Shown: in pieces, positions 14,027 to 61,672 of the stretch
Numbering within the stretch: position 1 is the first letter of the stretch
Layout of the letters: each line of letters starts with the position of its first letter
DNA from: Deltaproteobacteria bacterium
GTDB lineage: Bacteria; Desulfobacterota; GWC2-55-46
Direction of reading: 5' to 3'
Length of the DNA stretch: 64,000 nucleotides
NCBI GenBank assembly: GCA_016182655.1
Contig: JACPGB010000031.1
Coordinates: 1 to 64,000, forward strand
The notes under the pieces: model-generated
What the model saw: only the letters and a program-made list of their open reading frames with translations
Databases searched by the model: none
What the model was told of the DNA's origin: nothing
Made by a program: the position numbers and the translations under genes

Positions 14027-14042
14027 TGGCACGGTTGTTGCT
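14027..14042 (+). promoter_or_regulatory. Sigma-54 promoter for the TPR-kinase-regulator operon
   Basis: TGGCACGGTTGTTGCT matches the -24/-12 consensus at every defined position (GG at 14028-14029, GC at 14040-14041, ten bases between). It lies 37 nt ahead of the ATG at 14079. Confidence 0.8.
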
Positions 14043-16125: not shown

Positions 16126-16962
16126 ATGAGGGAACACATCGAGATGGAGCTTCTTAACGACGCCTTCAACATATTCAGGGACGCCTCCTCGAAGCTCGAA
16201 CAGCAGTACGCGTTGCTCGAACGAAAGATAGAGGACCTGAACGAGGAGCTCGCCGAGAAGAACAGGGCGATGGAGAGGAACCGGAGGCTCGCGGCAATGG
16301 GCGAGATGGCGGCCAGGATAGCCCATGAGATAAGGAACCCGCTCGGCTCCATGGCGATCTTCGCGACCCTCCTTGAAAGGGAGCTCTCGGCGGAGCCGGA
16401 CAAGAAAAAGCTCGCCGTGCACATTACAAAGGGGGTCAAGACACTCGACAACCTCCTCTCCAACATGCTCCTTTTCGCCTCGAACCCCGGGGTGAGGCTT
16501 AAACAGATAGATCTGAAGGACGCCATAGAGGACGCGCTTTCAATGACAATAGGCCACGAGAAAAAGGGCGTCAGGATAAAGACCTCCTTCGACGGCTCGA
16601 CCCTTGTCATGGGCGACCTCGCGCAGTTGAGACAGCTCTTCCTGAACCTCTTCCTTAACGCGCTGGACGCGCTCGATGAGGACGGCACGCTCGTCATAAG
16701 GATAAGACCGTCGGAAGACGAGCCCGGCATAACGGAGGTCGAGGTAAAGGACAACGGCAGGGGCATACCGTCGGAAGCCCTCGACAGGATATTCGACCCG
16801 TTCTTCTCGACAAAAGACAGGGGGACCGGGCTCGGGCTCGCGATAGTATCGACGGTCGTCTCGGCGCACGAGGGTTTCATAGACGTAAGCTCCGAGGAAG
16901 GCAGGGGGACGAGGTTCGTCATAAGCCTTCCTGTGGCGGGGCCGGAAAAGGCGATCTGTTAG
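16126..16962 (+). CDS. Soluble sensor histidine kinase (FlrB/FleS-like)
   Basis: A 278-residue kinase without membrane segments. Residues 1-55 form a coiled coil; the HisKA H-box AHEIRNPL places the phospho-acceptor at H67; the HATPase_c domain has an N-box (NALDAL), DNGRGI, FDPFFSTK and GTGLGLAIV. No PAS domain is obvious. The ATG at 16126 has an AAAGGAGG site. Its place between the sigma-54-driven TPR gene and the NtrC-type regulator at 17143 matches the FlrB-FlrC or FleS-FleR arrangement that fires the middle flagellar genes, so it probably senses a flagellar assembly state from inside the cell. Confidence 0.88.
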   Translation: MREHIEMELLNDAFNIFRDASSKLEQQYALLERKIEDLNEELAEKNRAMERNRRLAAMGEMAARIAHEIRNPLGSMAIFATLLERELSAEPDKKKLAVHITKGVKTLDNLLSNMLLFASNPGVRLKQIDLKDAIEDALSMTIGHEKKGVRIKTSFDGSTLVMGDLAQLRQLFLNLFLNALDALDEDGTLVIRIRPSEDEPGITEVEVKDNGRGIPSEALDRIFDPFFSTKDRGTGLGLAIVSTVVSAHEGFIDVSSEEGRGTRFVISLPVAGPEKAIC

Positions 16963-17142: not shown

Positions 17143-18510
17143 ATGGCCAGCATACTCGTAGTCGACGATGAAGCCGGGATGAGGATAGCCATAAAGGAGG
17201 CCCTGTCCAGAAAGGGGTACTCCGTTGAGGTCGCCGAAGACGGCCATGAAGCCATCAGGAAGATAGGTTCGTCCGAGTACGAGATGGTCATCAGCGACAT
17301 GAAGATGCCGGGGCCCGGCGGCATGGAGGTATTGAGGGAAGTAAAAAAGACCTCCCCCCATGTGCCGGTCCTCCTCATAACCGCGTTCGGCACCATACAG
17401 AAGGCCGTGGAGGCGGTCAAGGAAGGCGCGCTCGACTTCATCATAAAGCCCTTTGAGCTTGAAGCGCTCGAAGGGGCGGTCGAGAAGGCCCTGAAGGTGG
17501 CGGGAGAGCTCGGCACGTTCGAATCAAAGGGCAAGTCGATGCTCTCGAACGACCCTTCGATGAGGAAACTCGTCTCCATGGCGCTTGTCGCGGCCTCAAG
17601 CGACGCAACCGTCCTTGTATCCGGCGAGTCGGGCACTGGCAAGGAACTCCTCGCCCGCTTCCTCCACGCCAACTCCACGAGGGCGGATAAACCCTTTGTG
17701 GCGGTAAACTGCGCCTCGATCCCGGAAGGGCTCCTTGAGAGCGAGCTCTTCGGACATGAGAAAGGCGCTTTTACCGGGGCGATACAGCAGAGGCAGGGAA
17801 AGTTCGAGCAGGCGAATACCGGGACCATACTTCTGGACGAGATAAGCGAGATGGACCTTAAGCTCCAGGCGAAGTTGCTCCGCGTCATCCAGGAAAAAGA
17901 GGTCGAGAGGCTCGGGGGCAAGACCACGATACCGCTCGATATACGCATCATCGCGACCACGAACAGGGACATGAAGAAGGAAGTCCGGGAAGGCCGCTTC
18001 AGGGAGGACTTGCTCTACAGGCTGAACATCTTCCCGCTGACCCTGCCGCCGCTCCGTGAGCGCGGCGAGGACAGGCTTTTCCTCGCTGAGCACTTCATGA
18101 ATAAGTTCAACCAGAAGTACTCCAGGCGCGTCGAAGGCATCTCGAAGGAGGCCGCCTCCTATATAGAGAGGCACGAGTGGCGGGGCAACATCAGGGAGCT
18201 TGAGAACACGATGGAGAGGGCGGTGCTCCTTAGCCAGGGCAAGACCCTTCTCAAGGAACATCTCGTAATTGGCGACGACTCCGAAGAAGAGACGGCCATG
18301 ACGGCTACAGAGCGCGAACCGATATCGGAGAGGTTGGTTGACGGCCGCAAAGCCAATAATATGACGCTTTGGGAGATGGAGAAGGGTCTTATATGTAAAA
18401 CCCTTGACGATGTCGAGGGGAACCGGACGCAGGCCGCCAAGCGTCTCGGCATCTCCGTAAGGACCTTGAGGAATAAACTTAAGGAATACGGGCAAAATCT
18501 GCCCGGGTAG
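17143..18510 (+). CDS. NtrC-family flagellar response regulator (FlrC/FleR-like)
   Basis: Sigma-54 activator of 455 residues. Receiver domain with D8-D9 and phospho-acceptor D52; AAA+ domain from about 138 with Walker A GESGTGKE, intact [15 protein letters not shown] and the arginine-finger region; C-terminal Fis-type HTH ([20 protein letters not shown]). Paired with the preceding soluble kinase and placed directly before flgB, which has a sigma-54 promoter, it is the likely activator of the basal-body, rod and glycan operons. Ribosome-binding site AAAGGAG precedes ATG 17143. Confidence 0.9.
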
Positions 18511-39479: not shown

Positions 39480-40106
39480 ATGGAAGCCAGGAACTGGAAC
39501 GATGTGATGTCCAAGATAAAAGATGAGCTCTCCAGCCTCGCCCAGTTCGTAGATAAGACAAGGAGGGGGATAGACACCCTTGAGACCACGGTCAGGGCCG
39601 GGACCGAGCGTTTTCCAGAGGCCTCGAACCAGATAGCCGCCGTTACCGGCGACCTCGAGAACGCCGCGAACAACATCATGTCCATCCTCGAAGGCCTCAT
39701 GACCGAGCAGGACAAGATGCACACCATACTCGACCTCGAAGGCCTCATGACCGAGCAGGACAAGATGCACACCATACTCGAGGGCATTTCCCAGTGGGCC
39801 GGGAGCCTGCCGGGAGAAGCATCGGAGAAGGGGCTCGGTTTCATAAAGGAGCTCGGCGGCATCCACGAAAAGACCAAGACAGAGCTCATGGACATATTCA
39901 CCAACATGTCTTTCCACGACCTCTCGGGGCAGAAGCTCAAGAAAGTCATAAGCTCCCTGGCGGTGGTCGAGTCCAAGCTCCTTGAGATGGCCTTGAGCTT
40001 CGGGTTCGAGGGCGCAAGTAAAGGCAACGGGTCGGTTGAAACGAAACCCGAAAAGCCGATGAACCAGGACGTGGTGGACAGGCTCCTTAAGGAGCTCGGG
40101 GCTTAA
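39480..40106 (+). CDS. cheZ: Protein phosphatase CheZ
   Basis: Dephosphorylates CheY-P. 208 residues: a long helical hairpin, then the DLSGQKLKKVISSLAVVE active-site region (Asp and the conserved Gln) and a C-terminal CheY-binding helix (MNQDVVDRLLKELGA). An exact 48-bp tandem duplication (39686-39781) inserts 16 extra residues into the first long helix, just before the tip of the hairpin. The frame is kept, so the protein may still work. Confidence 0.92.
   Translation: MEARNWNDVMSKIKDELSSLAQFVDKTRRGIDTLETTVRAGTERFPEASNQIAAVTGDLENAANNIMSILEGLMTEQDKMHTILDLEGLMTEQDKMHTILEGISQWAGSLPGEASEKGLGFIKELGGIHEKTKTELMDIFTNMSFHDLSGQKLKKVISSLAVVESKLLEMALSFGFEGASKGNGSVETKPEKPMNQDVVDRLLKELGA
39686..39781 (+). 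repeat. Exact 48-bp tandem duplication within cheZ
   Basis: Two adjacent identical copies (39686-39733 and 39734-39781) encode LEGLMTEQDKMHTILD and LEGLMTEQDKMHTILE. Perfect identity at synonymous sites points to a very recent event or an assembly artefact. Confidence 0.93.
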
Positions 40107-49485: not shown

Positions 49486-49501
49486 TGGCACATATGTTGC
49501 A
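49486..49501 (+). promoter_or_regulatory. Sigma-54 promoter of the flgF operon
   Basis: TGGCACATATGTTGCA fits the -24/-12 consensus exactly (GG 49487-49488, GC 49499-49500). The same 16 bases occur at 59428 ahead of the glycan operon. It lies 33 nt before flgF and should drive flgF-flgG-flgA-flgH-flgI and onward. Confidence 0.83.
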
Positions 49502-51743: not shown

Positions 51744-52442
51744 ATGAAGACAGGATTCAAAATACTCGTTATGCTCGGCGCTGTTTTGTTCTTCGCCGGT
51801 TGCGCGACACCCGAGCCGAAGAAGATAGACATCTCGAACATCCCGGTGCAGGGCAGCTCCGCGCCGACTACACCCGGGTCTCTCTGGCCCGGCGAGACTT
51901 CCAGAAATACGCTCTTTCAGGACCTCCGCGCCCGTAATGTAGGCGACATCATAACGATAGAGATATCAGAAAAGACGAGCGCCATTAAGGAGGCGACCAC
52001 CTCCACATCGAGGTCGTCTTCAAAGGATATTGCGCTTACGAACCTCTTCGGCCTGCCTTCGAACCTCGGCATGAGGAACTTTTTGAACCAGGGCACGCCC
52101 TTCAGCCCCGAGGTCTCTTCCACCTATGACTCGAACTTCGACGGCTCCGGCACCACAAAAAGGACCGGCGAGTTGAGCGCGACGATCACGGCGAGGGTCA
52201 TAAGGGTGCTCCCCAACGGCAACCTTGTGCTTGAAGGCAAGAAGGACACGGTCGTCAATAACGAGCTCCAGTACATAATACTCAGCGGCATCGCGAGGCC
52301 CGAGGACATAACCGAAGCCAATATCGTCTCGTCGAGCCAGTTGTCGGATGCCCGCATAGAATACTCCGGCAAGGGCGTCCTCGCCGACGAACAGGGCCAG
52401 GGCTGGCTCGGGAGGGTACTTGACAATGTCTGGCCGTTCTAA
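51744..52442 (+). CDS. flgH: Flagellar L-ring lipoprotein FlgH
   Basis: Outer-membrane ring subunit. 232 residues with a lipoprotein signal (FFAGC lipobox, Cys near residue 19), SLWPGETSRNTLFQDLRARN and NGNLVLEGKKDTVVNNELQY. Its presence with FlgI confirms an outer membrane. The gap to flgI (247 bp) is unusual and holds a second copy of the structured element seen at 4373. Confidence 0.95.
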   Translation: MKTGFKILVMLGAVLFFAGCATPEPKKIDISNIPVQGSSAPTTPGSLWPGETSRNTLFQDLRARNVGDIITIEISEKTSAIKEATTSTSRSSSKDIALTNLFGLPSNLGMRNFLNQGTPFSPEVSSTYDSNFDGSGTTKRTGELSATITARVIRVLPNGNLVLEGKKDTVVNNELQYIILSGIARPEDITEANIVSSSQLSDARIEYSGKGVLADEQGQGWLGRVLDNVWPF

Positions 52443-52487
52443 AAAGACCTTGAAAAAGTTCCTGAGAGAACCTTTTTATAAAAAGTG

Positions 52488-52653
52488 TGCTGGGCGCACC
52501 GCCAGATTTCAGTCGGAGCACTCTGAGCAATTTAAAGCACGGTCGATTGAAATGGGTTTGCCAGTCCGGCGAGGACTCTCAGACTCTCTCCAAAAATTTT
52601 CAGTTCTTCCAGAAGTTCTCCCCCAAAAAGACAACGGGGGAGAACTTCTGGAA
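52488..52653. repeat. Structured intergenic element, copy 2, in the flgI leader
   Basis: Core 52488-52582 aligns without gaps to 4400-4474 and on to tcag (ttgcc motif exactly 70 nt after tgct in both). It is followed by a perfect 18-bp stem (52607-52624 with 52636-52653) and an 11-nt loop. The stem sequence is unrelated to that of copy 1, but it is equally long and perfect. The flgI ribosome-binding site lies 23 nt further on. Confidence 0.72.
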
Positions 52654-52689
52654 CTAAAACTCTTCGGAGTGGGTGTGGGAGATACTTCT

Positions 52690-53814
52690 TTGTACAAAAG
52701 GGTTTTCATAGATACTTTTTTCCAATGGCCTGTGGCTGCATTCGTTATCGCTTTAATGTTCCTGCTCTTAAGCGGTACCTCTGAAGCCGCGCGCATCAAG
52801 GACATCGCCTTTGTCGAAGGGGTGAGGTCCAACCAGCTCGTCGGCTACGGCCTCGTCGTCGGCCTGAACGGCACCGGGGACAAGTCCAGCAGTGCGACCA
52901 ACCAGTCGATATCGAATATGCTGAACAGGATGGGGATGAAGATAGACCCCAAGAACATAAAGGTCAAGAACACGGCCTCGGTCCTCGTCACCGCCGAGAT
53001 ACCGCCCTTCGTCAAGCCCGGAGCCAGGATAGACATTCTGGTCTCGTCCATAGGCGACGCCTCGAGCCTCCAGGGCGGCACTCTGATATCAACGCCGCTC
53101 CGCGCGCCTGACGGCGCGGTCTACGCCATGGCGCAAGGGGCGATTGCGCTCGCCGGGTTCACCGCAGGCAAGGCGTCGTCGAGCGTCACAAAGAACCACC
53201 AGACAGCGGGAAAGATACCCGGGGGCGCGATACTCGAACGCGAGGTCCCCTTTGCCCTGAACGCCCAGAACGGGCTCGTATTTTCCTTAAGGAACCCTGA
53301 TTTCACGACTGCCGCGCGCATGGTCGACGCGATAAACAAGGGGCTCGGGTATGACGCGGCAACGGCTCTCGACGCGGGCAAGATCAAAGTGGCCGAGCCT
53401 CAGGGGTCCAAAGGCCTCATAGAGCTCATATCCGCGATAGAGCTCCTTGAGATAAAGGCCGACGCGGTCACTAAGGTCGTCGTGAACGAGAGGACCGGGA
53501 CCGTCGTCATGGGCGAGAACGTAAGCATATCGAGTGTCGCCATCTCTCACGGCGACATAAGCATAGAGGTCAAGACCCAGTACCATATTTCCCAGCCCGC
53601 CCCGTTCTCGAAGGGAGAGACGGTCGTCCAGCCGGTCGAGGAGACTACCGTACAGGAGGAGAGGTCGAGGCTTATCGTGCTCCCGGAGAGCGTAACTCTC
53701 GGGGAGGTAGTAAGGGCCCTTAACCTCGTGGGGGTGACCCCGCGGGACCTCGTAGCGATACTCCAGGCCATAAAGGCCGCGGGCGCGTTGCAGGCGGAGC
53801 TCGAGATCATCTAA
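52690..53814 (+). CDS. flgI: Flagellar P-ring protein FlgI
   Basis: Periplasmic ring subunit. The frame is open back into flgH, but the extra upstream residues would be translated from the structured repeat and look non-coding. A TTG at 52690 with GGGAG eight bases upstream gives a proper signal peptide (YKRVFIDTFFQWPVAAF..., cleaved near SEA-A) and 374 residues, the usual size. The mature start ARIKDIAFVEGVRSNQLVG and the VVGLNGTGDKS block are characteristic. The TTG call is inference. Confidence 0.9.
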   Translation: MYKRVFIDTFFQWPVAAFVIALMFLLLSGTSEAARIKDIAFVEGVRSNQLVGYGLVVGLNGTGDKSSSATNQSISNMLNRMGMKIDPKNIKVKNTASVLVTAEIPPFVKPGARIDILVSSIGDASSLQGGTLISTPLRAPDGAVYAMAQGAIALAGFTAGKASSSVTKNHQTAGKIPGGAILEREVPFALNAQNGLVFSLRNPDFTTAARMVDAINKGLGYDAATALDAGKIKVAEPQGSKGLIELISAIELLEIKADAVTKVVVNERTGTVVMGENVSISSVAISHGDISIEVKTQYHISQPAPFSKGETVVQPVEETTVQEERSRLIVLPESVTLGEVVRALNLVGVTPRDLVAILQAIKAAGALQAELEII

Positions 53815-53826
53815 GGAGGTTTTATC

Positions 53827-54039
53827 ATGGGAGCCAAACTCATAGACGAAGAGCTCGCTATCCAGAGGTCGTGCGAGATACCGAAGGAGTGCAAAAGGTA
53901 CATCTCTCACCATGTGCGGAACGGCCTCGTCTCGATAATGGGGCTCGCCCTGAGGCTACAGGACGAGCCTGAGGCGATAAAGGAAATAGAGACCAGGATA
54001 AGGCACATAGCCGGCGACCTCGAGAAGGTCGGGCTCTAA
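53827..54039 (+). CDS. Small protein resembling an isolated histidine-kinase DHp helix pair
   Basis: A 70-residue cytoplasmic protein with a good start (TAAGGAGG ahead of ATG 53827). After about 20 residues it has RYISHHVRNGLVSIMGLALRL, where H28-H-V-R-N-G-L lines up with the H-E-I-R-N-P-L phospho-acceptor box of HisKA domains, and a second helix (EIETRIRHIAGDLEKVGL) with the spacing of DHp helix 2. There is no ATPase domain. It sits between flgI and flgJ, 12 nt after flgI and 8 nt before flgJ, so it is co-expressed with rod and ring genes. Role unknown; a phosphotransfer or dimerisation peptide is a guess. Confidence 0.75.
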   Translation: MGAKLIDEELAIQRSCEIPKECKRYISHHVRNGLVSIMGLALRLQDEPEAIKEIETRIRHIAGDLEKVGL

Positions 54040-54047
54040 GGGCGCAT

Positions 54048-54848
54048 ATGGACGTCTCAAGCGCGATAGCTTCCTCGGTAAAGGCCGACGAGGCGTTAAA
54101 AAAGGACAACAGTGCCGAATTAAAAAAGGCCCTCACCGAGTTCGAGTCCCTTTTTATCGGCTATATGCTCAAAACCATGAAGGAGAGTGTCGCAAAGGGC
54201 GACCTCTTCCACGGCGGGAGCGGCGAGGAGGTCTACAACTCCCTTTTCGATACCGAGCTTGCGCGCCTCATGGCCTCGGGCCACGGCATAGGACTCAAGG
54301 ACATGATGATGAGGGAGATGGGCGGGACCGATGGGCCGGGTGCGACTGAAGAGTTTACCGGAAGGGCGTTTGTTCCGTACACGCCGCCGCACGCGGCCAC
54401 GGAAGTAATCGATGAGCCGGTAGACGAGCCCTTAAAGTCCAAGGCCCCTGAAAACGGCTTGAGGTTCCCGGTCAACGAGGGATTTAAGAGGGTAAGCTCC
54501 AAGTACGGCCTGAGGGAGGACCCCTTCACTGGCCACGAAAAGTTCCACCACGGGGTCGACATAGCGGCAAAAGAGGGCTCTCCTGTATATCCGGCGGCCG
54601 AGGGCAGGGTAATATTCAGCGGCACGAGGGGAGGGTACGGCAACGTCGTGGAGGTCCTCCATGAAAACGGACTGGTGACAAGGTACGGCCACAACGCCAG
54701 GAACCTCGTAAAGGAGGGAGACCGGGTGACTACGAAGGACGCCATAGCCTCCGTAGGGTCGACCGGCAGATCGACCGGGCCCCACCTCCACTTCGAGGTA
54801 TTAAAGGACGGCTCGGCTATCGACCCATCGGGGTTCAGGTTCGGATAG
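54048..54848 (+). CDS. flgJ: FlgJ-like rod protein with C-terminal M23 peptidase domain
   Basis: A 266-residue protein. The N-terminal 100 residues are the rod-binding domain (LTEFESLFIGYMLKTMKE, YNSLFDTELARLMA), as in FlgJ rod caps. The C-terminal 130 residues are an M23/LytM zinc endopeptidase with metal ligands H167/H168 and D171 and the H246-L-H248 motif, followed by FEV. Most proteobacterial FlgJ proteins carry a glucosaminidase instead. No signal peptide: it is probably exported through the flagellar channel, and would open peptidoglycan by cutting peptide cross-links. Confidence 0.88.
   Translation: MDVSSAIASSVKADEALKKDNSAELKKALTEFESLFIGYMLKTMKESVAKGDLFHGGSGEEVYNSLFDTELARLMASGHGIGLKDMMMREMGGTDGPGATEEFTGRAFVPYTPPHAATEVIDEPVDEPLKSKAPENGLRFPVNEGFKRVSSKYGLREDPFTGHEKFHHGVDIAAKEGSPVYPAAEGRVIFSGTRGGYGNVVEVLHENGLVTRYGHNARNLVKEGDRVTTKDAIASVGSTGRSTGPHLHFEVLKDGSAIDPSGFRFG

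Positions 54849-59427: not shown

Positions 59428-61672
<2,245 letters not shown>

Follow-up and report, generated by a model that had tools for sequence, protein, structure and literature searches.

To our knowledge, the phosphotransfer (DHp) hairpins of histidine kinases very rarely occur without a fused ATPase domain or ATPase remnant. Spo0B carries a C-terminal degenerate ATPase-like domain. CheZ is a helical-hairpin dimer that drains a receiver domain, and FlgN and FliT are helical chaperones encoded beside their clients. Spo0B forms a dimer of helical hairpins, and ChpT, which does not autophosphorylate, has a C-terminal degenerate ATPase-like domain (PMC3433190). The phosphorylated residue of the histidine kinase HK853 is H260, and removal of the CA domain was reported to leave HK853 a phosphatase (PMC7005713). 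For CrdS, a HisKA kinase, the acidic residue directly after the histidine (H+1) is needed for kinase and not phosphatase activity, while the T/N at H+4 is needed for phosphatase and not kinase activity; in HisKA proteins, the DHp is sufficient for phosphatase activity (PMC3510030).

Here we describe a 70-residue mini-protein encoded in a 64,000-nucleotide stretch of a Deltaproteobacteria bacterium contig (JACPGB010000031.1; hereafter the window). A literature search found no paper on such a protein, and searches of NCBIfam, PHROGs, and PADLOC yielded no family for it; as far as could be found, a minimal single-hairpin DHp family has not previously been described. We propose that the mini-protein is a stand-alone DHp-derived hairpin acting on a receiver domain, as a phosphatase or a relay (probability, about 0.45). 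The likeliest analogy is with Spo0B and ChpT (i.e., dimeric DHp-type phosphotransfer without autophosphorylation), although the mini-protein is much smaller and has no C-terminal ATPase-like domain. CheZ offers a functional analogy as a receiver-draining hairpin dimer, but the mini-protein has no match to Pfam CheZ (PF04344), and the CheZ of this genome is encoded separately (Table 1), so that replacement of a missing CheZ was rejected as an explanation.

A small gene within a sigma-54 flagellar operon

The open reading frame is intact and, as originally predicted, its translation contains H28-H-V-R-N-G-L. The tight packing claimed for it is evident from the gaps of 12 nt behind the flgI stop codon and 8 nt before the flgJ start codon, and Pfam identifies the two neighbors as the P-ring and rod-cap proteins. 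The frame is coding according to the codon-usage model of the window, AGGAGG-like sites also precede the gene in several orthologs, and dN/dS values among orthologs are about 0.06 to 0.16. Because it has a ribosome-binding site, a dN/dS of about 0.1, and a position between flgI and flgJ that is the same throughout the class genomes carrying it, we conclude that this is a genuine gene. No RNA structure above chance was detected at its start codon (z, 0.23). The PF02119 match in FlgI spans positions 52792 to 53808, and the listed start of the flgI frame is probably too far upstream.

The assignment to a sigma-54 flagellar operon is also supported, since a perfect -24/-12 site, located 32 nt 5' of flgF, heads a same-strand gene run (flgF-G-A-H-I-mini-protein-J-M-N-K-L). 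An identical copy of this site (59428 to 59443) precedes sugar-nucleotide genes at 59476, downstream of the flagellar cluster, and a third perfect-consensus site lies at 14027.

TABLE 1 Coordinates of the mini-protein gene, its predicted elements, and associated flagellar features in the window
Feature	Positions	Strand	Evidence or remark
Histidine kinase, soluble (FlrB-like)	16126-16962	+	Pfam HisKA and HATPase_c; H-box HEIRNPL
NtrC-type sigma-54 activator with receiver domain (FlrC-like)	17143-18510	+	Pfam; candidate partner
CheZ	39480-40106	+	Pfam CheZ, E = 1.3e-13; fills the CheY phosphatase slot
Sigma-54 -24/-12 site, TGGCACATATGTTGCA	49486-49501	+	Pattern search, zero mismatches; heads flgF...flgL run
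flgI (P-ring), upstream neighbor	52420-53814	+	PF02119 match
Shine-Dalgarno GGAGG	53815-53819	+	Sequence; directly after flgI stop, 7 nt 5' of mini-protein ATG
DHp-like mini-protein (70 aa)	53827-54039	+	ORF with Shine-Dalgarno; 25 class genomes, always with FlgI; dN/dS about 0.1; AlphaFold2 hairpin
Predicted helix alpha-1 (residues 20-44)	53884-53958	+	AlphaFold model
H-box-like core codons, H28-H29-V30-R31-N32	53908-53922	+	Alignment A1; exposed face by helical wheel
Predicted helix alpha-2 (residues 48-67), then conserved C-terminal G-[LV]	53968-54027	+	AlphaFold model; alignments
flgJ (Rod-binding and Peptidase_M23), downstream neighbor	54048-54848	+	Pfam

Distribution of the flagellar mini-protein

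The gene was found in 25 of the 63 genomes of the class, and all 25 also encode FlgI. The orthologs in 22 other genomes (44 to 91% identity) lie between FlgI and FlgJ wherever the contig reaches that far, and the gene is kept at one site in four families. A scan of 395 genomes spread over the phylum gave flagellar-type matches in the window's class only, and in the genomes searched the family is confined to this class. The named relatives come from uncultured 'Deltaproteobacteria' metagenome-assembled genomes, many of them from groundwater. Fourteen flagellated genomes of the class lack the mini-protein, and in these flgI is directly followed by flgJ except in G053, where the gap (L125) holds an unrelated small Cys-rich CxxC reading frame. 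Therefore, the mini-protein is an accessory rather than a core flagellar part and is dispensable for flagella.

The M23 domain of FlgJ is absent from several genomes that keep the mini-protein and present in genomes that lack it; since the two occur independently, a role as an inhibitor or chaperone of the M23 hydrolase in flagella was rejected. Within the class, this C-terminal peptidase domain has apparently been lost or gained repeatedly (L017, L020, L021, L025, and L027 versus L118 to L127).

Relationship to the DHp domain of histidine kinases

As a single sequence, the mini-protein matched Pfam HisKA (PF00512) with 15.9 bits (E = 0.014), below the gathering score of 26.9, while the profile of its orthologs found the H-boxes of genuine kinases from other members of the phylum (E, about 1e-4). 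The kinases of an initial comparison had been picked by the mini-protein's own profile, and the comparison was therefore repeated with HisKA domains from the window's own genome chosen only by PF00512, to avoid similarity-based choice. In this HHalign comparison, the mini-protein profile matched the HisKA profile at 97.3% with a score of 56 (at most 17 in 60 column shuffles), H28 fell on the H-box histidine, and both helices aligned to the kinase DHp without gaps. Thus, the DHp-like reading of the original prediction passed the profile check, though the Pfam match itself is subthreshold. The mini-protein shares with HisKA the H-x-x-R-N core and the predicted hairpin, but it stands alone at 70 residues, has a nonacidic residue at H+1, and carries G in place of P at H+5. 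Its frame ends before flgJ with no HATPase_c, which agrees with the claim that ATPase and sensor domains are missing.

Fourteen positions are invariant in all 23 full-length orthologs (i.e., M1, G2, A11, P19, Y25, S27, H28, R31, N32, L34, I37, I61, D64, and G69; alignment A1). The conservation of H28 and R31-N32 in orthologs between flgI and flgJ, on which the original prediction had been staked, is therefore complete, and N32 occupies the H+4 position throughout. The H+1 residue is H in 22 of the 23 sequences and A in the other, and it is acidic in none. Since the residue after H28 is nonacidic, a role as a phosphatase or in a phosphorelay is a better fit than a kinase-like one. Judged from its sequence, the mini-protein is not a kinase, having no ATPase domain and a His in place of the acidic H+1 residue, and its H-box reads as a kinase-dead, phosphatase-capable type.

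The AlphaFold model (single chain; pLDDT, 84.8) places helices at residues 8 to 13, 20 to 44, and 48 to 67 (i.e., a short helix followed by an antiparallel helical hairpin). The hairpin that had been anticipated is thus predicted, while its supposed typical DHp length is not; it is somewhat shorter and has no N-terminal input helix. With H28 invariant and a helical hairpin predicted, neither outcome named beforehand as refuting the DHp reading was observed. H28, R31, and N32 are likely exposed, as a helical wheel sets them on the side of alpha-1 opposite the hydrophobic face. Structural Z-scores, at about 5, do not exceed those of generic helical hairpins. If ungapped, the VIA-align ranges match H28 to H260 of HK853 (3dge) and to residue 391 of WalK (4u7o). 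A Foldseek search against the PDB gave no significant match; the best hit (E = 2.4), the histidine kinase VC2136 of Vibrio cholerae, is alone no evidence.

The original prediction included a dimerization partner that competes with the kinase at 16126. Nothing specific links the mini-protein to this kinase: by similarity to the mini-protein, its DHp ranks tenth among the 22 HisKA segments of the genome, and this kinase is also found in flagellated genomes without the mini-protein. The same rank leaves derivation of the mini-protein as a truncated copy of this kinase unsupported.

Relatives in lysis cassettes of a phage-like element

Profile searches uncovered a second set of relatives of about 60 residues in the same class as the window. 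Where context was available, most of their genes lie between an endolysin gene (M15 peptidase or DUF5675) and a gene for a holin with three transmembrane segments (GTA_holin_3TM); no holin was seen at the lysis-type locus of G024. HHalign aligned the flagellar and lysis-type families over their full length, including the N-terminal helix and the C-terminal G-L (98.4%; E = 1e-14; score, 70.5; shuffles, at most 19.8). Searches back with lysis-type alignments A2 and A4 recovered the flagellar proteins at E values of about 1e-4 to 1e-10, and the other matches below 0.001 in the 395 genomes were only small lysis-type proteins. The lysis-type model likewise shows a short helix plus a hairpin (pLDDT, 93.3), and the similarity of this family to HisKA is weaker (score, 22.6; shuffled, at most 17). 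Thus, by profile comparison, the closest relatives of the mini-protein are lysis-cassette proteins of prophage- or gene-transfer-agent-like clusters. Despite full-length homology and a common predicted architecture, they reside mostly in endolysin-holin cassettes rather than flagellar operons, and they fall outside the flagellar members, all of which lie on one side of a branch with 98/96 support. The H-box His is replaced in G043 (L084), the Asn is changed to Gly in G025 and G027 (L080/L081), and both are probably changed in G032 (L189); the Arg and the C-terminal GL stay in these members. In both groups the C terminus is nearly always G-L, with G-V (L026) and E-L (L087) as exceptions. This ending, unexpected for a DHp, is possibly a recognition or degradation signal. 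No relative was confirmed in viral contigs (three scans), phages, or plasmids.

In G024 and its relatives, genes with PHROGs matches to terminase, portal, major head, tail, and lysis functions form a compact cluster around the lysis-type gene. The element adjoins lpxC, at one and the same site in two families, and no integrase was noticed in the G024-type cluster. One of its tail proteins is encoded in 31 of the 63 class genomes, including that of the window, whose own copy of the element (L185, G000:C23) has no mini-protein between endolysin and holin. Further cluster loci are L173/L085 (G024), L078 (G010), L080 (G025), L187, and L188. The element resembles a gene transfer agent and may be regarded as a candidate gene transfer agent or domesticated phage of this uncultured class.

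Phospho-active or inert hairpin

The reading as a DHp-derived phosphatase or relay draws on the invariance of H28, R31, and N32, with a His at H+1 and an Asn always at H+4. Against it, no receiver partner is evident for the nearest relatives, the prophage lysis-cassette proteins, some of which have lost the His or the Asn. Furthermore, the kinase at 16126 likewise carries N at H+4 and might itself dephosphorylate its regulator. The main rival, which we regard as quite possible, is that the phospho-chemistry of the DHp-derived hairpin has been lost and that the mini-protein now has a binding or structural role, serving as adaptor or chaperone to a protein of the flagellum or of lysis, such as FlgJ (through its rod-binding part) or a holin, with the H/R/N face as its protein-binding site. 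The occurrence of relatives in two wall-breaching settings (flgI-flgJ and endolysin-holin) argues for this rival, as do the substitutions of H or N in lysis-type members and the C-terminal ending (mostly V/L/M-G-L), which almost every flagellar and lysis-type member retains and which would be needless for a pure DHp. However, the DHp catalytic set (H, R, and N) never varies in the flagellar members, and the independence of the FlgJ M23 domain and the mini-protein leaves no tie to the hydrolase. Regarding the chaperones FlgN, FliT, and FliS, Pfam gave no match for the mini-protein, and generic hairpin matches including FliS were obtained only for the lysis-type model.

That the mini-protein is specifically a Spo0B/ChpT-like phosphorelay intermediate, shuttling phosphate between two receivers via H28, seems unlikely. 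H28 and N32 are kept without an acidic H+1 residue or an ATPase domain, and Spo0B (1ixm) was one structural match to the lysis-type model (Z, 4.2), but no donor, whether a hybrid kinase or an orphan receiver, is demonstrably linked to it in the cluster, the degenerate ATPase domain of Spo0B and ChpT is absent, and the His is lost in some lysis-type members. We consider it very improbable that the gene hitchhiked out of a lysis cassette into the flgI-flgJ gap and is devoid of a flagellar role: its kinship with lysis-cassette proteins and the 14 flagellated relatives without it would suit such an origin, while the dN/dS of about 0.1 and a single clade retained at the same position in four families, invariably accompanied by FlgI, speak against it. 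Overall, the original prediction was partly supported.

Possible function and implications

On the phosphatase or relay reading, the mini-protein would be a stand-alone DHp-derived hairpin, presumably a homodimer forming a four-helix bundle, that has kept its receiver-docking face (H28, R31, and N32) and lost the autokinase machinery. The dimer would most likely bind a phosphorylated receiver domain and drain it, either by water-mediated dephosphorylation via N32 or by accepting the phosphate at H28. Because the mini-protein gene lies in the run headed by the sigma-54 site, the simplest circuit would be negative feedback on the NtrC-type flagellar activator (17143), a candidate partner, once the basal-body operon runs.

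Since the mini-protein combines a DHp-like hairpin with closest relatives among prophage lysis genes, our data suggest a small switch of a new type and not one of the known components of the flagellum. If phospho-active, a lone hairpin of 70 residues would be about the smallest phospho-signaling protein of the DHp type, and it offers a ready test of whether a DHp acts alone as a phosphatase in nature. Its location in the sigma-54 operon provides a concrete hypothesis for switching off the flagellar activator. The lysis-cassette relatives prompt one to ask what is common to flagellum assembly and particle release. One rather doubtful answer is that a minimal single-hairpin DHp family, having evolved within one class both in the flagellar basal-body operon and in the lysis cassette of a vertically inherited element resembling a gene transfer agent, in both settings switches a response regulator off or relays phosphate upon operon expression; if true, flagellum assembly and particle release would be tied to one phospho-signaling logic.
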